Positions 2,647 through 12,577 of a stretch of 64,000 nt of DNA are shown here, one piece after another. A model generated the notes under the pieces. That model saw only the letters and a list, made by a program, of their open reading frames with translations, was not told where the DNA came from and made no database searches. The DNA lies in contig NZ_BONW01000013.1 in the NCBI RefSeq assembly GCF_016862915.1, positions 1 to 64,000 on the forward strand. Direction: 5' to 3'. Position 1 is the first letter of the stretch, and each line of letters opens with the position of its first letter. Position numbers and translations under genes: made by a program. This stretch comes from Plantactinospora endophytica (GTDB lineage Bacteria; Actinomycetota; Actinomycetes; Mycobacteriales; Micromonosporaceae).

Positions 2647-2931
2647 TTACTCGCCGGCTGAGTCCCAGACACGCTCGAAGACGTCTCGCGCAATGGTGTA
2701 GTTCTTCCAGACCGCGGTCCCGTCATCGAGGCTCACCTGCCCCAAACCCCCGTACCGGTCCTCCTCATGTCCAGGTCCATAGCGGAGAACCGGCCCGTTG
2801 TCGTAGACCTCGACCTGCCGAACAGGCCAGCCATCCTCACCGACCTCGAAGTACCAGACGGAGCGTCCCCAACCGTCAAACTCGTCGCCTCGTGACTCAT
2901 CCCAGCGACGGCGGAGGAAGCGAGTTGGCAC
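2647..2931 (-). CDS. DUF6881-like small protein
   Basis: A short protein of about 94 residues with the pattern WYFEVGEDGWPVRQVEVYDN followed by GGLGQVSL. This resembles the small actinobacterial family I know as DUF6881, whose function is unknown. The GTG at 2931 is preferred because the family normally begins close to the first conserved W; the frame stays open to a GTG at 2952. No ribosome-binding site is obvious for either start. Confidence 0.6.
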   Translation of the reverse strand: MPTRFLRRRWDESRGDEFDGWGRSVWYFEVGEDGWPVRQVEVYDNGPVLRYGPGHEEDRYGGLGQVSLDDGTAVWKNYTIARDVFERVWDSAGE

Positions 2932-2952
2932 CGGCGGAAGTCTACGACGCAC

Positions 2953-3291
2953 TCAACTGCCGCCGGTCGTGCGCGCCGGTGATGGCACCTCCGTCACCTT
3001 CGGTAGCTGCCGACCTGGACGTGGACAGCTGCGAGGATGTCTGGACGTGCCGATGCGCGGATGCCGCTGCGGACGATCGTCCACTGTGGTAGTCCGACCA
3101 CCGTCGGTACGGTGACCGCGTGACGCTCGGGTAAGGCGCTCTTCACAATCCCAACTCAGGTCCGTTGCTGTCTGAAAGCGGATTCTCGCGGGGGCGAGAC
3201 CTCACATCGCCTTGACTTCGCGTGGGCGAGACTGGGCGGCGCCTGCGATGTTCGGCTATATCGATGTGGGCACGGCGGACGGAGACGGGGT
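2953..3291. other. intergenic region upstream of the kinase/antiporter operon
   Basis: About 340 bases with no credible gene. It holds two copies of a 15-bp direct repeat (annotated separately) and must contain the promoter of the large operon that starts at 3292. Confidence 0.5.
3186..3232. promoter_or_regulatory. pair of 15-bp direct repeats before the operon
   Basis: TCGCGGGGGCGAGAC at 3186-3200 and TCGCGTGGGCGAGAC at 3218-3232 match at 14 of 15 positions and start 32 bases apart, about three helical turns. Each is itself a short inverted repeat (CGC..GCG core). The location 60-100 bases before the first gene suggests a repeated operator. No regulator gene is adjacent, so the binding protein is unknown. 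Confidence 0.4.
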
Positions 3292-4830
3292 ATGCCGGAG
3301 CGGGAGCTACGAGATCGAGGCGATCTCACGCAAGCCTTGCTGGACAACGCGACCTGGCCAGACAGCCTCGTCGCGGAGGCCGGCATCCCGGTGTACGACG
3401 TGCCGCTGGTGACGGTGGGCGGCGGCATCGGCTCGTTCGTACTGGTCGACTACCTGCGCATCGCGGGGGTACCGACCGCGGACATCCGGGTGCTGTCCAC
3501 CATCGACAACCCGTGGCAGACATACGAGTACCTGACCCGCGTCTCGCAGATCCCCGGGCCGGAACGCATCCGGTCCGACTCGTCCTCACGGCCGGACAAC
3601 ATCTGGGGCTTTCCGTCGTACGCGTTGAGCGAGGCGTGGCGGGAGCGGACCCTCCGACCGCTGGTGCACGTGCTCGGTGAGCCGATCTTCGCGGACTACT
3701 GGACGCCGCGCGTGGCCGACGTGTTCAAGAGCATGGCCCGGGAGTCCGGGCGTATCGGGTACCCGACGATGCTCGTGAAAGGCGTCGTGCGGATGGTGCG
3801 GCGGCGGGCGGGCGGCGGCTACTTCACCGTGCTGACGCCACCGGTCGGCACCGGCCCGACCAAGCGGGTCGCCTACCGCTCGCGCTTCGTGCACCTGGCG
3901 GTCGGGTACCCCGGGCTACGGTTCCTGCCCGACCTACAGGAGTTCCGGGAGAAGTACGGTGACTTCACGCGCGTGGTCAACGCGTACGAGTCGCACGAGC
4001 ACGTGTACGAGGCGCTGCGCACCAGGCCGGGCACCGTGATGGTGCGTGGCGGCGGCATCGTCGCGTCCCGGGTGCTGCAGCGGTTGATGGACGACCGCGA
4101 GCGGTTCGGGCTACAGACGAAGATCGTGCACATCTTCCGCACGTTCGTCACCGGCGCGCACGGGCCGCACCTGTGGTCGCGGCGCAAGGGCGGCGACGGC
4201 TGGGCGTACCAGGGATTCAACTATCCGAAGTCGGTGTGGGGCGGGCAGCTGAAGGCGAAGATGCGGCGGCTCGACGGCGCCGAGCGGGCGACCGAGTACA
4301 AGCGGATGGGCGGCACCAACACGCCTAAGCGCCGCCGCTGGCAGCAGCAGATGCGCGCCGGCCGCGAGGGCGGGTGGTACGAGGCGAGCCAGGGTCTCGT
4401 GGAACGGGTCGAGCCGGCCGCCGACGGCACGCTCGTCAGCCTGGTCACCGGCGACGCGGGCACGCGGAAGATCGGCGCCGACTACATCATCGACTGCACC
4501 GGCCTTGAGGCCGACATCGCCGAGCACCGCGTCCTCGCCGACCTGCTCGCGCACGGCGGCGCCGGCCGCAACCCGCTGGGCCGGTTGGAGGTCGAGCGCC
4601 ACTTCGAGGTCAAGGGGACGGCCAGCGGCGACGGTGCCCTGTACGCCACCGGCGCGGCCACGCTCGGCGGGTACTTCCCGGGCGTGGACACGTTCCTCGG
4701 GCTGCAGATCGGTGCGCAGGAAATCACCGACGACCTCGCCCGCCGTGGCTTCGGCCGCCGCATCGGGTCGGTCCGCTCCACCACGCAGTGGGTGCGCTGG
4801 GCGTTCGGCCGGCCGGTCCGGGAGGGATGA
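3292..4830 (+). CDS. FAD/NAD(P)-binding oxidoreductase
   Basis: A 512-residue flavoprotein-like enzyme. A dinucleotide-binding GGGIGS motif lies at residues 43-48. A second glycine cluster (RGGGIVAS) lies near residue 251, and a DYIIDCTG motif near residue 398 is typical of FAD/NAD(P) two-domain oxidoreductases and N-hydroxylating monooxygenases. A GATLGGYFPG-like stretch near the C terminus fits the second half of an FAD site. The substrate is unknown. A GGAG sits about 10 bases before the ATG. It opens a six-gene operon with a membrane protein, FHA protein, two kinases and an antiporter, which suggests a redox role under phospho-signalling control (inference). Confidence 0.75.
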   Translation: MPERELRDRGDLTQALLDNATWPDSLVAEAGIPVYDVPLVTVGGGIGSFVLVDYLRIAGVPTADIRVLSTIDNPWQTYEYLTRVSQIPGPERIRSDSSSRPDNIWGFPSYALSEAWRERTLRPLVHVLGEPIFADYWTPRVADVFKSMARESGRIGYPTMLVKGVVRMVRRRAGGGYFTVLTPPVGTGPTKRVAYRSRFVHLAVGYPGLRFLPDLQEFREKYGDFTRVVNAYESHEHVYEALRTRPGTVMVRGGGIVASRVLQRLMDDRERFGLQTKIVHIFRTFVTGAHGPHLWSRRKGGDGWAYQGFNYPKSVWGGQLKAKMRRLDGAERATEYKRMGGTNTPKRRRWQQQMRAGREGGWYEASQGLVERVEPAADGTLVSLVTGDAGTRKIGADYIIDCTGLEADIAEHRVLADLLAHGGAGRNPLGRLEVERHFEVKGTASGDGALYATGAATLGGYFPGVDTFLGLQIGAQEITDDLARRGFGRRIGSVRSTTQWVRWAFGRPVREG

Positions 4831-4833
4831 GAC

Positions 4834-5250
4834 GTGGTGCCCGTGCTGTCCGGCCGGATCCAGACCCGGCTGGTCCTCCTCCTGGTAGTGGGCTCGGTTG
4901 TCACCGCGGTCGTCACGCCCCTCGTGGGTGCCGACTACCGGACCACGTTCGCGGTGCTCGCCGCCGTGGCGGTGCTCGGGGTCGGCTGGGAGCTGCTGTA
5001 CCACCTGCTCATGCAGTTCCGCTGGGAGAAGGACTGGCCGTCGCTCTTCGGCCTGCTGACGGCGGTGCCCGAGGGCCTGCTGCTCTGGCTGCTGCTCGAC
5101 GCCGGCCTGCTGCCCACAGTGGACACCGTGCCGCTCGCCGCGTACGTCGTACACTTCGCCGCCGTGTGGCTGGCAGTCTGGCTCGTCGCGAACGGGCCGA
5201 TGCGGGTGCCGTTCCTGCGCTGGCGCTTTCGCGGAGGGCGGCTGACATGA
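4834..5250 (+). CDS. four-helix integral membrane protein
   Basis: A 138-residue protein with four predicted transmembrane segments (about residues 12-32, 38-60, 70-92 and 98-120) and a short basic C-terminal tail. No family recognised. It begins with GTG only three bases after the preceding stop and its own stop overlaps the next start (ATGA), so it is translationally coupled on both sides. The position between an oxidoreductase and an FHA adaptor suggests a membrane anchor or sensor subunit of the same complex (inference). Confidence 0.7.
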   Translation: MVPVLSGRIQTRLVLLLVVGSVVTAVVTPLVGADYRTTFAVLAAVAVLGVGWELLYHLLMQFRWEKDWPSLFGLLTAVPEGLLLWLLLDAGLLPTVDTVPLAAYVVHFAAVWLAVWLVANGPMRVPFLRWRFRGGRLT

Positions 5251-5816
5251 GGCAACCCGACCGCAACGCGCCCTTCGAGGCGGTCCTGCTCGTTCCCGGA
5301 GCGGCGGACGCGCCGACGGAGGTGGCACCGCGCAACGAGCCGACGCGGCTGCTTGTCGAGGGTGTGCACTGCGCCAACGGCCACTTCAACGACCCGGCCG
5401 TGCCGTACTGCCAGCTGTGTGGCATTTCGATGGCGCAGCGTACGCACGTCACCGTCCTCGGCCCGCGGCCGCCGCTCGGCGTGCTGCTTGTCGACGACGG
5501 CGCCACGTTCCGGCTGGACGCCGACTACGTGGTGGGGCGTGAGCCGCACCGCGACCCCGCGGTGGCGCACGGGGCGCGGCCGTTGCGCATCGCCGGGCCG
5601 GCGAGCGGCGTGTCGCGGCAGCACCTGCGGATGACGCTCGCCGGCTGGACCGTTCGCGCCGTCGACCTGGGATCGGCCAACGGCACGGTCGTCGAACCGC
5701 CCGGCGACCCGCACCCCTGGCGGCTCCAGCCGGGTGTACCGGTGGAGATCCGGCCCGGCACCCGGCTCGTGTTCGGGCTGCGCTGGCTGCGCTACGAGTC
5801 CCACCGAAACCCGTGA
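5247..5816 (+). CDS. zinc-ribbon FHA-domain protein
   Basis: A 189-residue adaptor. A putative zinc site uses C42, H46, C55 and C58. It is followed by a forkhead-associated (FHA) domain with the phosphothreonine-binding signature GR (97-98), SRQH (123-126) and LGSANGT (141-147). FHA domains bind phosphothreonine, typically on or near Ser/Thr kinases. Two kinase genes follow in the same operon, so it is probably their reader or substrate. It overlaps the upstream stop by four bases, supporting co-translation. Confidence 0.85.
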   Translation: MRQPDRNAPFEAVLLVPGAADAPTEVAPRNEPTRLLVEGVHCANGHFNDPAVPYCQLCGISMAQRTHVTVLGPRPPLGVLLVDDGATFRLDADYVVGREPHRDPAVAHGARPLRIAGPASGVSRQHLRMTLAGWTVRAVDLGSANGTVVEPPGDPHPWRLQPGVPVEIRPGTRLVFGLRWLRYESHRNP

Positions 5817-5833
5817 ACATCCCAGGGGAGCAG

Positions 5834-6634
5834 ATGCGCGGCATCGCCGACTACGAGTTCATCCGGCCGCTCGGCTCGGGCAACCACGGCCAGTACTTTC
5901 TCGCCCGCCGGCCGGCCCGACTGCCCGTCGAGGCCGCCGAGGTGGCGGTGAAGGTGCTGGCCGCCGAGTCGACCGAGGTGGCGTTCCGCCGGGCTACCCG
6001 CGAGCTGCGCGCGTTCGCGGCGGTACGTTCGCCGTACCTCGTCGCTCCGTACGACGCCGGGCAGCAGGACGGCATCTTCTACTACTCGACCGAGTACCTG
6101 CCGGGCGGTTCGCTGGCCGTGCCGGCCGCGCCTCTGGACCGGCCCGCCGCGCTGCGGGCGGTGGCACACGCCGCGCGGGCGGTCGCCGCGCTACACGCCG
6201 CCGGGGTCGTGCATCGGGACGTCAAGCCCGGCAACGTGCTCCTGCACGAGGGCGGCGCGCGACTGTCCGACCTCGGGCTGGCGCACGTCTTCGCCGAGGG
6301 CGTCACGATCACCGGCATGGGGGCGCTCGACTCGGTGGAGTACGTCGACCCCGCGCTGCTGCTGGGGGAGCGGCCGCAGCCGTCGCACGACGTCTGGTCG
6401 CTGGGCGTGCTGCTGCACCGCGTGGTGGCCGGCACCGGCATCTACGGCACGCTGCCGGAGGGCGATGGCCTGCTGGTGCTGCGCCGCGTGGTCTCCATGC
6501 CGCCCAAGCTGAGCGCGGAGCTGCCGGAGGCACTGGCTGCCCTGGTACGCGAATGCCTCGCGCCAGCCGCCGACCGGCCCGCCGCGCCGGCGCTGGCCGA
6601 CCGCGTCGACCGGTTCGCGGAGGGTGCCTCATGA
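5834..6634 (+). CDS. soluble Ser/Thr protein kinase
   Basis: A compact 266-residue kinase made of the catalytic domain only, without a membrane segment. Visible elements are the P-loop GSGNHG (14-19), invariant Lys (K40, VAVKVL) and the catalytic loop HRDVKPGN (127-134). The magnesium motif reads DLG (146-148) instead of DFG, and the usual APE is replaced by a divergent sequence after SVEY. It is therefore probably active but atypical. The ATG at 5834 follows AGGGGAG closely; an upstream GTG at 5813 lacks a ribosome-binding site. Its stop overlaps the antiporter start. Confidence 0.85.
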   Translation: MRGIADYEFIRPLGSGNHGQYFLARRPARLPVEAAEVAVKVLAAESTEVAFRRATRELRAFAAVRSPYLVAPYDAGQQDGIFYYSTEYLPGGSLAVPAAPLDRPAALRAVAHAARAVAALHAAGVVHRDVKPGNVLLHEGGARLSDLGLAHVFAEGVTITGMGALDSVEYVDPALLLGERPQPSHDVWSLGVLLHRVVAGTGIYGTLPEGDGLLVLRRVVSMPPKLSAELPEALAALVRECLAPAADRPAAPALADRVDRFAEGAS

Positions 6635-8406
6635 GCGCGCACGCCCTCGTCAGCTTTCTGCTCGCGGTCGCGGCGATCATCGTGCTGGCCCGGGCCTTCG
6701 GCTGGCTGGCCCGGCTCGTCGGCCAGCCACCCGTGATCGGCGAGCTCGTCGCCGGTGTCCTCATCGGACCGACGCTCTTCGGCACGGCGGTCAGCGACTG
6801 GCTGCTGCCCGCCGAGATCCGGCCCGTGATGTCCGGCCTGGCCAACCTCGGCCTGGTGCTGTTCATGTTCATCGTCGGCTACGAACTCGACCACGCCTCG
6901 CTGCGCGGCCGCGGTCGCACCGCCACCTCGGTGTCCATCGGGTCGATCGTGGCGCCGCTCGGGCTCGGCGTGCTGCTCGCCGGGTGGCTCGCCGGCCGGC
7001 ACGACGTCTCCGACCCGCTGCCGTTCGCTCTCTTCATCGGCGCGGCGATGGCGGTCACGGCGTTCCCGGTGCTGGCCCGCATTCTCACCGACCGCGGCAT
7101 GGTACGCACGCCCGTCGGCGGGCTCGCCCTCGCCAGCGCCGCCGTGGACGACGTCGTCGCGTGGTCGCTGCTCGCCGTCGTGGTCGCCGTCGCCGGGGCG
7201 GACGGCGCCAATCCGTGGCTGCCGCTGCTCTGCGTACCGTACACGCTGCTGATGCTGCTCGTGGTGCGGCCGCTGCTGGCCCGCGTCGACACGGCGCGGG
7301 CGCGTGCCGGGCGACTCACGCCCGACATCCTGGCCGTGGTGCTCGTGGGCCTGCTGCTGTCCAGCCTCGCCACCGAGTGGCTGGGACTGCACGCGATCTT
7401 CGGCGCGTTCCTCTTCGGCGCGGTCATGCCCCGGACGCGCGCCGGTGCGGCGGAGCCGAGCGGCGCGGACAAGCTCCGGGTCGAGACCCTCGAACGGCTC
7501 GAACAGGTCAGCGTGCTGCTCCTGCTGCCGGCGTTCTTCGTCCTTTCCGGGCTGCGGGTCGACCTCTCCACGCTCGGCGGGACGGGGCTGCTGGAACTCG
7601 CCGCGATCCTCGTCGTGGCGATCGGCGGCAAGTTCGCCGGGGCGTACGTGGCCGCCCGTCTGAACAAGGTGGCGACCCGCCCGGCCGGCGCGCTGGCCAT
7701 CCTCATGAACACAAGAGGGCTCACCGAGATCGTGATCCTGACGGTCGGGCTGGAGCTGGGGATCATCGACGAACGCGTGTTCTCGATGATGGTGGTGATG
7801 GCGCTGGTCACCACCGTCATGGCCGGCCCGCTGCTCAGCCTCGTCTACCCACGACGGATGGTCGAGCGGGACGCACTGGCGGTGCAGCGGCCCGAGGTAC
7901 CGCCGGCCGGCTACCGCGTGCTCGTCTCGCTGCCCGGGGGTCTGGCGCCCGCGCCGGCCCTTGTCGACCTCGCCGCCGACCTAGCCGAGCGGGGCGCCGC
8001 CGCTGCGGGACACAGCAGCGCAGAGGTGGTGCTGAGCCGGCTCGTGCCGTACCCGGCGCGGCCGCTTGACGTGGGCAGCGGCCTGTCGGAAGAACTGCTC
8101 GGCATGACCACCGCGATGGGGGAGCTGGCCGGCCTCGCCGACTCGGTACGGGCCCGCGGGCTCGGCGCGCCGGTGCTCGCCCGGTTCAGCCGCGACCCCG
8201 AGGCCGACCTCGCCGCCCAACTCGCGGCCGTCGAGCCCGACGTGCTGATTCGCGGCGGCGAGCCTGCGGTCGTCGTAGCACTGGGATCCGGCGCGGAGGC
8301 CGTGCGGCGCGAGGCGGCCGAGTTCGCGGCCAGTCGCGGGTTCGATGTCGTCATCGCGTCCGGAGAGCCAGCGGAGTCCCGGACGAGCGGGGTGACGGGC
8401 GGATGA
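6631..8406 (+). CDS. CPA2-type cation/proton antiporter with cytosolic tail
   Basis: A 591-residue transporter of the monovalent cation:proton antiporter-2 (Kef/NapA-like) family. About 12-13 hydrophobic helices fill residues 1-400, including the paired aspartates in AAVDDVVAW expected at the ion site. After an RRM basic stretch there is a cytosolic domain of about 170 residues with alternating beta/alpha character, like a universal-stress-protein module. It probably exchanges Na+ or K+ for protons. It starts with ATG overlapping the previous stop and overlaps the next kinase by four bases. Control by the flanking kinases is an inference. Confidence 0.85.
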   Translation: MSAHALVSFLLAVAAIIVLARAFGWLARLVGQPPVIGELVAGVLIGPTLFGTAVSDWLLPAEIRPVMSGLANLGLVLFMFIVGYELDHASLRGRGRTATSVSIGSIVAPLGLGVLLAGWLAGRHDVSDPLPFALFIGAAMAVTAFPVLARILTDRGMVRTPVGGLALASAAVDDVVAWSLLAVVVAVAGADGANPWLPLLCVPYTLLMLLVVRPLLARVDTARARAGRLTPDILAVVLVGLLLSSLATEWLGLHAIFGAFLFGAVMPRTRAGAAEPSGADKLRVETLERLEQVSVLLLLPAFFVLSGLRVDLSTLGGTGLLELAAILVVAIGGKFAGAYVAARLNKVATRPAGALAILMNTRGLTEIVILTVGLELGIIDERVFSMMVVMALVTTVMAGPLLSLVYPRRMVERDALAVQRPEVPPAGYRVLVSLPGGLAPAPALVDLAADLAERGAAAAGHSSAEVVLSRLVPYPARPLDVGSGLSEELLGMTTAMGELAGLADSVRARGLGAPVLARFSRDPEADLAAQLAAVEPDVLIRGGEPAVVVALGSGAEAVRREAAEFAASRGFDVVIASGEPAESRTSGVTGG

Positions 8407-10226
8407 CCGGCGAGGAAGAGCGGCGGTCGGCGGCGCTGCAGCCCGGCGACCCACGGCGGCTCGGCCGGTACGAGCTGGTGGGGCGGCTCGGCCAGGGCGG
8501 CATGGGCACCGTCTATTTGGCCCGCGACGCCGGCCGACCGGTCGCCGTCAAGGTCATCCGGGCCGACGTCGCCGCGCACGAGGAGTTCCGGCGTCGCTTT
8601 CGCGGCGAGGTCGAGCGGGCGCGGCAGGTACCGCCGTTCTGCACGGCCGAGGTGCTCGACGCCGACCCCGACCACGACCCGCCCTACCTCGTGGTGGAGT
8701 ACGTCGACGGCCCCAGCCTTTCCGACGTCGTGGCTGAGCGTGGCCCGCTCAGCCCGGCCAACCTGCACGCGCTCGCGATCGGCGTGGCGACCGCGCTGAC
8801 CGTGATCCACGGTGCCGGCGTCATCCACCGGGACCTCAAGCCCAGCAACGTCCTGCTCGCGCCCGGCAGCCCGAAGGTGATCGACTTCGGCATCGCGCGC
8901 GCGGTCGAGGCGACGAGCCACCACACCCGCACCAACCAGATGCTCGGCACCGTCGGATACATGGCACCCGAGCGCTTCGGCTCCGACGCCGCCAGAGTGA
9001 TCAGCCCGGCGGCGGACGTCTTTGCCTGGGGTGCGGTGCTCGCGTACGCCGGCACCGGCCGCCAACCGTTCGGTGTGGACACTCCACCGGTCGTGGCCGC
9101 ACGCATCGTCACCCAACCACCCGACCTGGCCGGGCTGGTACCCCCGCTGCGCGACCTTGTCGAACGCGCCCTGGCCAAGGACCCGGCCGCCCGCCCCACG
9201 TCGCGCGAGCTGCTCGACATGTTGCTCGCCCCCGGCCAGGTACGCCCGCCCGCCGTCCAGGCCGCCCTGGCGGAGCAGCCCGCCCTGCTCGCCGCCGCAG
9301 CCGAGGCCAAGGCGGCCACGGAACACTTCGCCATCCGCCCCGCCGGCCATGACACCACCCGCCTGGCGGGCGGGACTCCGGGGGCCGCGCCCGCGCCACC
9401 GCCGCCGGCCCCGCCCGCGCGTACCGGCGGGCGCTGGGGAAGGGTCGCGAGCGTGGCGCTGGCGGTGGCGGTGCTTGTCACGTCGCTGACCGTCGCGGGC
9501 ATCGCCAGCGGTGTGCTCCCATTCGGCGACGACGGCGACGGGTCGGATGGTGCGACCCCGACACCCACGGCGACCTCGCAGGCCACCACGGCGGCGACGA
9601 ACTCGCCGCCCACCCCGCCGGCCACGAACTCGGCCCCGCCCACCCCGCCGGCCACGAACTCGGCCGCGCCCGGGCCGCCGGTCGTGCGCGACCCGCTGAC
9701 CGCGCCCGGGCTGTGGAAGGTCCGCGAGGACGAAGCACAAGGCACCACCTGCACGTTCGACCGGGCGCTGGTGGTCGCCCGCGACAGCACCGGCCCGTAC
9801 CGCTGCCCGGGCCCGACCGACGCCTACACCGACGTCTCCGCCGCCGTCGACGTACGGCTTGAGACACCGGGTAGCTGCGCGGCGCTGTGGTTCCGCTTCG
9901 CCGGCAATGCCGGCTACCTCGTGCGCGTCTGTGCCGACTCGGTCGAGCTCGCCACCCACGGCGTCGGCGACGGCGCGAGCGTGACGGTGCTGCGGACCAT
10001 GGCCCTCGACGACCCGATCCCACCCGACACCACAACCCGCATCGCGGTTTCCGCCCGTCGCACCACCATCAGCATCGACCGCGACGGCCAACGCGTCGGC
10101 ACCGTCGACGACGCCACCTTCACCCGGGGCCGCGTCGTACTGGGCACCTTCCCCGCCACCACCGAGGAGCAGCCACCGTTCCGAGTTGCCTTTACCAACG
10201 TCGAGATCCGCTCCCTCGGCGGGTAA
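8403..10226 (+). CDS. transmembrane Ser/Thr kinase with extracellular sensor-like domain
   Basis: A 607-residue PknB-like kinase. P-loop GQGGMG (30-35), Lys50, HRDLKPSN (142-149), DFG (161-163) and APE (188-190) are all canonical. One hydrophobic helix lies at about 348-372. It is followed by a Thr/Pro/Ala-rich linker containing a DNA tandem repeat and then an exported domain (about 430-607). That domain is beta-rich and resembles concanavalin/LamG-like domains of sugar-binding proteins. The kinase end is cytoplasmic and the sensor outside. It is the last gene of the operon and the only one with an extracellular domain, so it is the likely signal input. Confidence 0.85.
   Translation: MTGEEERRSAALQPGDPRRLGRYELVGRLGQGGMGTVYLARDAGRPVAVKVIRADVAAHEEFRRRFRGEVERARQVPPFCTAEVLDADPDHDPPYLVVEYVDGPSLSDVVAERGPLSPANLHALAIGVATALTVIHGAGVIHRDLKPSNVLLAPGSPKVIDFGIARAVEATSHHTRTNQMLGTVGYMAPERFGSDAARVISPAADVFAWGAVLAYAGTGRQPFGVDTPPVVAARIVTQPPDLAGLVPPLRDLVERALAKDPAARPTSRELLDMLLAPGQVRPPAVQAALAEQPALLAAAAEAKAATEHFAIRPAGHDTTRLAGGTPGAAPAPPPPAPPARTGGRWGRVASVALAVAVLVTSLTVAGIASGVLPFGDDGDGSDGATPTPTATSQATTAATNSPPTPPATNSAPPTPPATNSAAPGPPVVRDPLTAPGLWKVREDEAQGTTCTFDRALVVARDSTGPYRCPGPTDAYTDVSAAVDVRLETPGSCAALWFRFAGNAGYLVRVCADSVELATHGVGDGASVTVLRTMALDDPIPPDTTTRIAVSARRTTISIDRDGQRVGTVDDATFTRGRVVLGTFPATTEEQPPFRVAFTNVEIRSLGG
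9601..9660 (+). repeat. 30-bp tandem repeat in kinase linker
   Basis: Two consecutive 30-base units share CACCCCGCCGGCCACGAACT exactly (9611-9630 and 9641-9660), with near-identical remainders. They encode a Pro/Thr/Asn-rich repeat in the linker between the membrane helix and the exported domain. Length variation here would change the stalk length without altering frame. Confidence 0.8.
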
Positions 10227-10243
10227 CGGCACATGGCCTTTCG

Positions 10244-10261
10244 GGACGGATTGATTCGTCC
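10244..10261 (+). terminator. weak stem-loop after the operon
   Basis: GGACGGA and TTCGTCC flank a TTGA loop 17 bases after the kinase stop. The stem is seven pairs including one G-T wobble. There is no T-run. It could be a terminator between convergent genes, but the evidence is thin. Confidence 0.3.
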
Positions 10262-10468
10262 GCGTCAATCTTCTCTGGCCGCGAGCCTCGTCGCCATCCG
10301 GATCTGCCGCAATCAGAGCGCGTCGGTGCTGGCGCGCCCGTCGCTCTCGGTAGGCGTTGATCCTGGTACGCCGAGCCAGAGAGGTCCGGGCATGCCGAAC
10401 TGCCTAGGTCTGGATCTGCCGACGGACCGCTGTGAACGCGAGTACGGTCTCGACTCTTCGGGCATGAC

Positions 10469-12265
10469 TCAGGCGGAAGCGGAAAATTGGTGGGTTGCTC
10501 GGCGGGTACGCCGGAAGTACGACCAGCCGGCGACGGGAAGCGCCACCGTCCACGCCAGGAAGATGGGCAGGCCGACCAGCGCACCGGTGATCGTGAACGG
10601 ATCAGCGGGGCTCGCCTCGGCGATGGCACGGGGAATCTTGAGGGGAAGGGTGAGTGCATAGCCGATCATCAGCGCGGAACCGAGCACGGTAGGCGTAAGC
10701 GGGATCCATGCCGGGACCCGGCGTCCACGTAGCAATGGCATCCAGCGTGGATAGACCAGTCCCCAGGGGCGTATGAGGCCCAGTGAGAGTATTCCGCCGA
10801 GAATGGCGAGCAGTGTCAGCCCGGCAAGGTAGAACCCTCCGGCGGGTATACCCAAGATGCCGTCCGGAAGACTTTCCGTGCCGTTGCTGCGGCCGTGGTA
10901 CCAGGCGTCGAAGCTCTCCGGGTGAGCGAGGAAGGGTATGGCGAAGATCCAGGGTAGATGTAGGGGGACGAAGCCGAGGATGGGTGCCATCCAGCCGACC
11001 GTTCCAGCGATTCGCGCCCACCGGGGCGGGCCGGCAACGTCAATGTCGTCCGTGGACGTGAGTCTTCGCGTAGTCGGTTGTGAACTGCCTGAGGGATACT
11101 GACATGGTTCGGCGCTGGGAACATCGCGTGGGACGGGTTGATCGGTGAATCGACGAATCGACTGCCTCATGCGTACCGCACTGTAGACGTCCATCGGGCC
11201 CATCAGCCCCGATCGGGTGTCCATCTGCGGGCACGGCGGCCGGGTCAGCGCGAAGTACGACGCGGCGGCCACCAGCAGCCCAACACCCCAGAGCGTGTAG
11301 CCGCCCATCTCCAGCGCCAAGCGCAGGAACGGGCCGCCGAACTCACCGCGGATCCAGGCGGTCATCCCGGCGATGCCGAAGTATGCGGTCAGGCTCGCCC
11401 CCACGAACAGGCCAGGGCCGAGCACCAGCCATCGAGGCACCGCCCGACCGCGCAGTGGCCCCGACCAGGCCGGCCAGAGCCGGCCCCAGCGGTGCGCCAG
11501 GGCCAGCGGTAACAGCGTGCCGGCCAGGGTCATCAGCACCATGAACACCACGATCGCGGTCCACGATATGCCGTTCGCCCGGCTCGCCACGGACGGCCAC
11601 CGCCCGGCGATCGTGTCGTTGAGCCACACGCTCATCCGGGCCACGAAACCGACGACGGCGAGGTAGGCGCCGGTGAAGGCCCAGACGGGCGCCTGCTCCG
11701 CCCGGCTTTCCGGTGACCTTCCGTGGGCGCGCCCGCAAGCCGCGCAAGGATGCGCGGCCAGCCGCCGCTCGCCTGCGGCGATGATCAGGCAGAGGGTTCC
11801 GCCGATGATGCCGCTGCCGGTCGCCAGCAGACTGGCGAGGCTGCCGGGTCGGGCGCCTTCGAACAGCAGTGATACCACGATCACCGGGAACAGGAACGAA
11901 TACACGCACAAGGCAGCGCCCGCGACGGCGTTGAACCCGGCGAGCACGTAGCGGCCGGTGTCGCCCATCTCGCGGCGGGCGGTCACCGCGGCGCAGAGGC
12001 ATCCGACCGCCGCGAGGACGCCGAGGACCACGGGAACCCATCCGCCGGGGAAGTACGATTCCCGGCCATTCAGAAAACGTGGCCCAGCGCTGGTAGCCCA
12101 CGACATGTGGACCAAGGCGTATGCGATCTGCCACACCGCAGCGACAATCCGGACCTGCCTGTTGACCATCACGGCTCGGGCACCATGGTCGCGGGTCTCC
12201 GTATCGTTTCTCGCGGTCATCGCGAGTGACGGCGCAATGGCGTCAAGCGGTCCGTACCTCTTCAT
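10469..12265 (-). CDS. multi-pass membrane protein with internal duplication
   Basis: About 598 residues with roughly ten to eleven hydrophobic segments. Two halves share the motif W-G-x-x-x-P-x-W-x-x-(P)-L-R-G-R-x-V-P: WPAWSGPLRGRAVPRWL in the first half and YPRWMPLLRGRRVPAWI in the second. A hydrophilic insert separates them, so it looks like a duplicated unit. Function unknown. The ATG at 12265 is used, although ATGs at 12220 and 12169 are alternatives. The frame continues upstream through an operator-like promoter region (12303-12345) that should not be coding. Confidence 0.65.
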   Translation of the reverse strand: MKRYGPLDAIAPSLAMTARNDTETRDHGARAVMVNRQVRIVAAVWQIAYALVHMSWATSAGPRFLNGRESYFPGGWVPVVLGVLAAVGCLCAAVTARREMGDTGRYVLAGFNAVAGAALCVYSFLFPVIVVSLLFEGARPGSLASLLATGSGIIGGTLCLIIAAGERRLAAHPCAACGRAHGRSPESRAEQAPVWAFTGAYLAVVGFVARMSVWLNDTIAGRWPSVASRANGISWTAIVVFMVLMTLAGTLLPLALAHRWGRLWPAWSGPLRGRAVPRWLVLGPGLFVGASLTAYFGIAGMTAWIRGEFGGPFLRLALEMGGYTLWGVGLLVAAASYFALTRPPCPQMDTRSGLMGPMDVYSAVRMRQSIRRFTDQPVPRDVPSAEPCQYPSGSSQPTTRRLTSTDDIDVAGPPRWARIAGTVGWMAPILGFVPLHLPWIFAIPFLAHPESFDAWYHGRSNGTESLPDGILGIPAGGFYLAGLTLLAILGGILSLGLIRPWGLVYPRWMPLLRGRRVPAWIPLTPTVLGSALMIGYALTLPLKIPRAIAEASPADPFTITGALVGLPIFLAWTVALPVAGWSYFRRTRRATHQFSASA

Positions 12266-12302
12266 GCCGCTCACGGTAGGAACGAGCAGCGCCGGGCCAC
12301 CT

Positions 12303-12345
12303 CCCCCTGAGGAGGGAGCGTCCTCCCCTGGGGGTGGTGATTCAG
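12303..12345. promoter_or_regulatory. imperfect inverted repeat, probable operator/promoter
   Basis: CCCCCTGAGGAGGGA and TCCTCCCCTGGGGG lie back to back around AGCG. They form an imperfect inverted repeat built from CCCCTGAGG/CCTCCCCTGGGG-type half-sites about 40-80 bases upstream of the membrane protein gene on the minus strand. This spacing and symmetry fit a response-regulator or LuxR-type operator. The regulator is not adjacent. Confidence 0.4.
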
Positions 12346-12577
12346 TGGCTGACCGGCCGGGAGGGCTGGATCGACCCGCTGCTGTGTCCGCAGGTACCAG
12401 CGCACCTTCTACGGCAACATCACGTGCACTCCTCTGCCGTCGGCCGACCGCGCCGAGGCCGAGGTCGACTGCGAGGGCGGTCCGTTCGCCTGGCGGGCCA
12501 GCGGGCCAGCGGGCCCGCTGGCTGGTGGCGGAGTGCGACTGGTCGAGGGGTCGCGGTGTCCGGCGCTGATGCAATGA
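12334..12577 (+). pseudogene. frameshifted remnant of a small unknown gene
   Basis: From the GTG at 12334 one frame encodes WLTGREGWIDPLLCP. Near 12390 coding character jumps to another frame that runs to a TGA at 12575-12577 (YQRTFYGNITCTPLPSADRA, then an Ala/Gly-rich end). The second frame has strongly G/C-biased third positions for about 60 codons but no start codon of its own. It reads as a short gene broken by one frameshift or missing its 5' end. No family recognised. Confidence 0.35.

Follow-up and report, generated by a model that had tools for sequence, protein, structure and literature searches.

A conserved flavoprotein, FHA adaptor, kinase and antiporter gene module in actinobacteria, probably an undescribed membrane signalling unit

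The six-gene operon in Plantactinospora endophytica

The DNA described here, which we call the window, is the 64,000-nucleotide stretch at the start of contig 13 (NZ_BONW01000013.1) in the 9.7-Mb genome of Plantactinospora endophytica, and our subject is a set of six tightly packed plus-strand genes, g1 to g6, at positions 3292–10226. Five of these, g1 to g5, form a conserved module across several actinobacterial families, and this set is probably a real, still undescribed membrane signalling unit. The junctions between the six genes are four-base overlaps or, in one case, a three-base gap, and an earlier first-pass annotation, which described six genes with overlapping or nearly overlapping stops and starts, was correct both in the gene count and in these contacts.

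The first gene, g1 (3292–4830), encodes a 512-residue flavoprotein of an unnamed family, with a motif for binding flavin adenine dinucleotide (FAD), GGGIGSF, a second Rossmann motif, GGGIVA, and a predicted SidA-like fold with two dinucleotide-binding domains. Three bases further on lies g2 (4834–5250), a four-helix membrane protein also of an unnamed family, followed through an ATGA overlap by g3 (5247–5816), a short-form adaptor of 189 amino acids with a zinc ribbon and an FHA domain. The soluble Hanks-type kinase g4 (5813–6634), with DLG in place of DFG, overlaps g3 at a GTG, and its relatives point to the ATG at 5834 as the likely true start. ATGA overlaps also connect g4 to g5 (6631–8406), a NapA-like cation/proton antiporter with a C-terminal tail that is perhaps Usp-like, and g5 to g6 (8403–10226), a membrane Hanks-type kinase with one transmembrane segment and a C-terminal domain that, judging from this single segment, would lie outside the cell. 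The window proteins have Pfam matches to FHA in g3 (4e-7), Pkinase in g4 (5.5e-29) and g6 (1.8e-42), and Na_H_Exchanger (PF00999) in g5 (3e-51); hydropathy gives four segments for g2 and eleven for g5 but no segment for g3 or g4, and g6 has one at 349–367 and one inside the kinase domain. A pattern scan of 2900–10700 for sigma-70 promoters and stem-loop terminators gave no sites.

Most of the first-pass labels stand: the predicted fold supports g1 as an FAD oxidoreductase, the four hydropathy segments agree with four helices in g2, the zinc-ribbon FHA description of g3 and the soluble DLG kinase of g4 hold in the window and in relatives, and the CPA2-type antiporter and membrane kinase calls for g5 and g6 are sound. 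Two attached labels fared less well. The stress-protein-like tail of g5 finds weak support, and this comes from relatives and not from the window copy, and the concanavalin-like label for the outer domain of g6 was not confirmed, with no concanavalin-like Pfam match at E≤1 and no family match of any kind.

Distribution and gene order of the module

Genome contigs were scanned for short exact g1 peptides, a procedure hence biased towards close relatives; the scan gave 119 relatives, of which the best 80 loci were kept, making 81 with the window. Counts of loci are counts of related genomes and not of independent events, absences hinge on draft genomes and score thresholds, and taxa were assigned to families from record titles and general knowledge. 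According to those titles, the taxa represented among the loci include Phytohabitans, Actinoplanes, Streptosporangium, Nocardioides, Geodermatophilus, Gordonia, Nocardia and Frankia. Gene profiles find g1 and g2 in all 81 loci, g3 in 77, g4 in 65, g5 in 62 and g6 in 7; at the four loci without a g3 match the contigs stop 160–1106 bases after g2. All of g1 to g5 are present in 61 of the 81 loci, within spans of at most 8793 bases (median 6436) and in six gene orders. The commonest order, in 29 loci, is g1 g2 g3 followed by an inverted g5 and then g4; in 13 loci g4 is divergent and upstream with g5 inverted, 11 have the order g5 g4, and 6 have g4 g5 g6 as in the window, with single loci showing g4 g5 and an upstream g5. 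The first-pass annotation would have been refuted had the genes not been conserved together in relatives; g1 to g5 pass this check, lying together within 8.8 kb in varying order, whereas g6, a lineage-specific accessory, does not.

The surroundings of the module vary far more than its contents. When 50 of the 81 loci were placed in five groups by genus names and their neighbourhoods compared, the module clusters were common to all five groups and few other clusters were shared between groups: none in four pairs of groups, one in three pairs and two in two pairs, with seven non-module clusters common to the Geodermatophilaceae and the Micromonosporaceae-type group, these being carried by a single locus, L035. 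We regard the conservation of g1 to g5 as a module as secure.

Within the module, g1 and g2 go together as a pair. The g2 gene lies 12–111 bp downstream of g1 in all 81 loci by profile match, and among 250 genomes of the family it occurs in exactly the 20, the window genome included, that have a full-length g1, and in none without g1; two further genomes have weak partial g1 matches. This pair is the most constant part of the module and looks like its core. In wider draws, which overlap, g1 matches turn up in 15 of 396 genomes of the phylum, weakly in three of these, and, at 1e-30, in 24 of 394 genomes of the class, a distribution that is widespread but patchy. A plasmid collection gave one match, in the 11.85-Mb record NZ_LT559118.1 of Nonomuraea gerenzanensis, which is filed there as a plasmid and has no features annotated at the match. 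One genome, G774, has three g1–g2 copies (L176, L178 and L184), one in a full module, one with a g3 containing a g2-like stretch, and one with g1 and g2 alone in the stretch.

A wider set of 29 loci (L134–L150 and L176–L187), several of them truncated where a contig stops and no fewer than four repeating named records, gives a similar picture. Here g2 adjoins g1 in 27 loci, the exceptions being L136 and L187, where the contig ends inside g1; 19 have g3, 15 have g4-type kinases (at a low threshold, three of them below 100 bits) and 12 have g5. Two of these loci, L139 and L141, have the order g5-g1-g2-g4-g3 (in L141 g5 and g1 are 1.4 kb apart), and L140 has g5-g1-g2-g4 before its contig stops short of g3. 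At L136 a protein with a DM13 electron-transfer domain (9905–10606) is encoded between the antiporter and g1, at the place where no g2 was found. In L142 and L143 a TauE/SafE permease gene is flanked by g2 and g4, and the 18–19 kb of sequence contain no match to g5; in L068 and L076 of the main set DUF305 and SulP genes follow g3.

In Nocardioides a second phospho-signalling cluster is a neighbour of the module, with genes for an FHA-trypsin protein, a kinase and a vWA protein (L085, 1547–5512) and for a PP2C phosphatase (seen in L064, 5336–6439).

Features of the module proteins

The G-x-G motifs of both Rossmann parts of g1 are present in all 81 loci. The predicted model of g1 (predicted local distance difference test, pLDDT, 82; predicted template-modelling score, pTM, 0.82) has the two-dinucleotide-domain fold of SidA-type N-hydroxylases, which use FAD and NADPH. 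All 50 Foldseek matches listed are N-hydroxylases (SidA, PvdA, lysine 6-monooxygenase, KtzI, DesB, DfoA and putrescine N-hydroxylase), with a best E of 4e-19, probability 1.00, TMt 0.61–0.73, TMq 0.55–0.62 and root-mean-square deviations of 4.9–6.1, at sequence identities of 11–16%. Family models are uninformative: none of 34 g1 members has a SidA-family match in Pfam, seven having Trp_halogenase matches (best 0.001) and one an EF-hand_13 match; the window copy has EF-hand_13 as its only Pfam match (0.14, below cut-off), and among 34 members searched against NCBIfam at E≤0.1 there is no SidA-family model and no clear family. Sister flavoproteins at L123, L124 and L125 resemble much of g1, with no Pfam family over cut-off and no clear family.

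The g2 proteins share the motifs GRxQTR, RWEKDWP (an invariant stretch) and NGPxR..WR..GGR, which by positive-inside reasoning would lie on the cytoplasmic side of the membrane. The window g2 has no Pfam or NCBIfam match, and 33 members have scattered weak Pfam matches only. Sequence searches of the PDB with g1, g2 and the N-terminal domain of g3 gave nothing convincing, and the three point to protein families without a clear model.

The zinc-ribbon ligands of g3 (C, H, C, C) are present in 77 of 77 loci, as are the FHA motifs GR and NG, with SRxH in 76; the window copy has all of these. The g3 proteins are long (at least 330 amino acids) in 72 of the 77 loci, and short in the window, L031, L032, L035 and L057, the window copy being without the N-terminal domain found in those 72. 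An apparent additional gene between g2 and g3 in relatives is not a separate gene and is the N-terminal part of the longer g3. The predicted model of this domain (pLDDT 94) has as its top Foldseek match the phosphatase PppA (6jkv; E 7e-4, probability 1.00), the sole match under 0.001, and most of the 50 matches listed are PP2C-type phosphatases or complexes with one, with TM-scores all below 0.5. An hhalign comparison against aligned PP2C sequences found no match (E 0.34), 30 members have no clear Pfam model, and the conserved metal-binding aspartates of PP2C are absent, the best columns having Asp in 20 and 15 of 30 sequences. The N-terminal domain thus resembles, by a moderate match, a degenerate PP2C fold and is, without the conserved aspartates, probably a pseudophosphatase.

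Fusions connect g3 to g2. In L148, g2, the zinc ribbon and a degenerate FHA region are in a single frame, and in L178 and L180 a normal g2 lies beside a long g3 in which a second stretch, diverged but resembling g2 (63 and 57 bits), separates the N-terminal domain from the zinc ribbon. These fusions speak for g2 and g3 acting next to each other at the membrane.

The window g4 has the residue set of an active Hanks-type kinase, with the Lys, HRD and Asn intact and DLG for DFG, and the Lys and DLG are kept in all 65 loci with g4. Other residues are less constant, with the metal Asn lost in 8 of the 65 and the loop Lys in 26. Those g4 proteins that keep the Lys and DLG without the catalytic Asp (L072, L083, L084, L086, L088, L092 and L105 with HAN, L101 with HGN and L058 with HRA) are apparently pseudokinases. 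The other kinase, g6, lies directly after g3 in L035, where g4 and g5 were not found. Kinase-like matches additional to g4 and g6 occur in about 16 of the 80 named loci; they do not qualify as g6 at the 250-bit threshold used for that call, and a second kinase may therefore still be common. In L075, L080, L100 (7980–8774), L102, L103, L104 and L107 the extra kinase lies within about 300 bases upstream of g1. L138 and L143 have two g4-type matches each.

The g5 antiporter has a CPA2/Na_H_Exchanger membrane domain (the NCBIfam CPA2 model TIGR00932 matches at 5.7e-40, below its curated cut-off), and its nearest solved structure by profile is NapA (5bz2, 7e-34), with KefC (8bxg) at 8e-8. The DD and Lys of the window g5, the ion-site signature of NapA-type antiporters, align with those of NapA, and g5 is a predicted cation/proton antiporter. 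The second Asp and the Lys are present in all 62 loci with g5, and the first position varies (DD in 40, ID in 17, ND and GD in 2 each, VD in 1). The change from Asp to Ile, in L036–L038, L040–L042, L044–L049, L051, L053, L055, L056 and L063, may alter the ion stoichiometry. The C-terminal tail is weakly Usp-like: five of 25 members have a Pfam Usp match at E≤0.1 (best 1.2e-5), the window copy having none, and hhalign against a narrow Usp alignment gives E values of 0.004–0.02 at probabilities of 2–8%, with unrelated controls at 0.09–0.75. No KTN/RCK-type domain was found on any of the same number of members (25 of 25) scanned in Pfam at E≤0.1. The g5 of L059 is without a tail.

Possible functions, related systems and the flanks of the operon

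We tentatively favour, at somewhat short of an even chance, a redox-signalling complex, anchored in the membrane, in which FHA/kinase chemistry would control ion transport. The FAD/NAD(P)-binding g1 would dock on the cytoplasmic face of g2, which would also hold the zinc-ribbon FHA adaptor g3 with, in most relatives, its degenerate PP2C-like front domain. Depending on its flavin redox or ligand state, g1 would alter the g2–g3 assembly, and g4, in the window lineage together with g6, would supply the phosphothreonine that is read by the FHA domain of g3; a degenerate g4 may act as an ATP-bound scaffold instead of writing phosphothreonine. The outcome would be to switch the NapA-like g5, or a substitute transporter, so that cation/proton balance tracks redox state. 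The data show the grouping of the genes, the pairing of g1 with g2, the g2–g3 fusions, the predicted folds and the intact motifs; formation of the complex, the direction of signalling, the redox input, the antiporter as output and all of the phosphorylation steps are what we infer.

Several observations lead to this redox-signalling reading. First, five genes are grouped in six different orders with few other clusters shared between the groups of loci. Second, g1 is paired with g2, g2 is fused with g3, and g1 has the fold of monooxygenases that use FAD and NADPH. Third, the FHA residues and zinc ligands are kept in 76–77 of 77 loci, and the TauE/SafE and SulP/DUF305 loci are cases of other genes in the vicinity; control of ion exchange fits both the conserved antiporter and the TauE/SafE swaps. 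There is also a precedent in KefF, an oxidoreductase encoded beside the CPA2 antiporter KefC and binding to it (PMC10224563). If the reading is true, an FHA/kinase adaptor would connect the redox state of actinobacterial cells with ion exchange at the membrane, and the fusions and transporter swaps predict binding partners.

Other observations weigh against it. The catalytic Asp of g4 is lost in 9 of 65 loci (seven HAN, one HGN and one HRA), the FHA-site residues are degenerate in all three fused forms (L148, L178 and L180), and the g3 of L139 has lost most of its zinc ligands. The genes g1, g2 and g3 are alone in their stretch in 11 of the 81 loci, one of which (L073) is cut 2.5 kb after g2, and the remaining nine incomplete loci are without one or more module genes, some through contig ends. 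Among the distant loci, L134 (Nonomuraea) has g1 and g2 with no g3, g4 or g5 within 9 kb, and L136 has no g2 beside g1. When 12 genomes of loci without g4 or g5 nearby were searched for these genes, a strong g4 with an adjoining full-length g5 was found in only two, those of L039 and L095; in the other ten the g4 matches (1e-28 to 1e-36) are like those of other kinases, and the antiporter matches cover the membrane part only, that of L059's own antiporter included. The antiporters of the L108 and L110 genomes score 427–458 bits, much as does the g5 of L149 (456 bits), which has no tail, and these genomes may therefore have a dispersed g5.

The first-pass annotation had placed kinases at the centre, with an extracellular cue entering through g6. 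With g6 in only 7 of 81 loci its outer domain cannot be a general input, and the kinase-centred picture as a whole is weakened by the losses of the g4 catalytic Asp and by the finding that the flavoprotein/membrane-protein pair is the most constant part.

The same constancy suits a membrane-bound biosynthetic or detoxifying flavin monooxygenase, in which g1 would hydroxylate or oxidise a small or membrane substrate, g2 would be an anchor or substrate tunnel, and the FHA protein, kinase and antiporter would merely tune the enzyme and balance protons. The SidA, PvdA, KtzI, DesB and DfoA kinds of N-hydroxylase being the only ones among the g1 fold matches listed, together with the loci without g4 or g5 nearby, also point this way. 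However, a fold match at such low identity does not establish an activity, no non-module cluster is common to all five locus groups, and the antiporter and kinase recur too often for mere extras; g1 also differs from the N-hydroxylases in having no family model match and in being paired with a membrane protein. We consider this explanation rather unlikely.

A bolder form of the redox-signalling reading, which we put forward as a doubtful speculation, is a redox-gated transporter controller of a new class, composed mostly of proteins that read rather than make signals and working with interchangeable transporters (NapA-like, TauE/SafE and perhaps SulP). The g1/four-helix pair would sense, at the membrane, the state of NAD(P)H or of quinones and would have a pseudo-PP2C, zinc-ribbon and FHA adaptor as a bound or fused partner, together with a kinase on its way to becoming a pseudokinase; in some lineages the assembly might be driven by ATP and redox state without phosphotransfer by g4.

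Improbable, by comparison, is a Kef-like defence in which g1 detoxifies quinones or electrophiles and binds and opens the antiporter, acidifying the cytoplasm, with the kinase and FHA protein as a second layer. The likeness lies in the arrangement, since in kefF–kefC, and in the KefG–KefB pair, the oxidoreductase subunit gene is just upstream of that of a CPA2-type antiporter in one operon with overlaps of a few bases (PMC10224563). However, g1 and g5 often have opposite orientations, g5 is closer to NapA than to KefC and has no KTN match, and the module adds g2, an FHA adaptor and a kinase. KefF is a 20-kDa quinone reductase with a flavodoxin-like fold that binds flavin mononucleotide, and g1, far larger and of SidA-type fold, is not a small flavin oxidoreductase of the KefF/KefG type. 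With no KTN match, a different flavoprotein and a NapA-like antiporter, the module is therefore not a Kef system. That six unrelated genes share one operon by accident, as the rarity of g6 might suggest, is barely credible and is already refuted for g1 to g5 by their conservation through rearrangement and by the gene fusions.

Resemblances to other phospho-signalling systems are partial. In the actinobacterial MviN pseudokinase–FhaA and GarA/OdhI systems Hanks kinases act through an FHA protein that regulates a target in the membrane or in metabolism, with other partners and domains and no flavoprotein or antiporter. ArnA of Sulfolobus carries a zinc finger. It is, like g3, a zinc-binding FHA adaptor, is under kinase control, and differs in being an archaeal motility repressor with a vWA partner. 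The threonine phosphorylation pathway of the type VI secretion system places a kinase (PpkA) and an FHA adaptor (Fha) at a membrane machine, and the best fold match for the N-terminal domain of g3 is the PP2C phosphatase of this pathway, PppA; in the module, however, the PP2C-like domain has no conserved aspartates, is inside the FHA protein and is absent from the window copy, and the core is the flavoprotein/membrane-protein pair. We found no description of the module's composition in print in searches of listings and abstracts, in agreement with the first-pass annotation, which knew of no named system of this kind.

A role as a defence system was also considered, with PADLOC matching g4 and g6 to kinase models such as PD-T4-6 and mad6; these are read as generic kinase-domain matches, and the flanks in relatives, inspected by eye, resemble ordinary chromosomal genes, and the defence reading was therefore set aside. 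The nearest named relative among the matches listed is Phytohabitans flavus, with a g1 95% identical to that of the window; in its locus (L031, 10959–14054) the matches of g3 and g4 to the window proteins are only partial in length, which a frameshift or sequencing error may explain. Downstream of the operon in the window, on the minus strand at 10469–12574, a convergent open frame has membrane-protein-like stretches.

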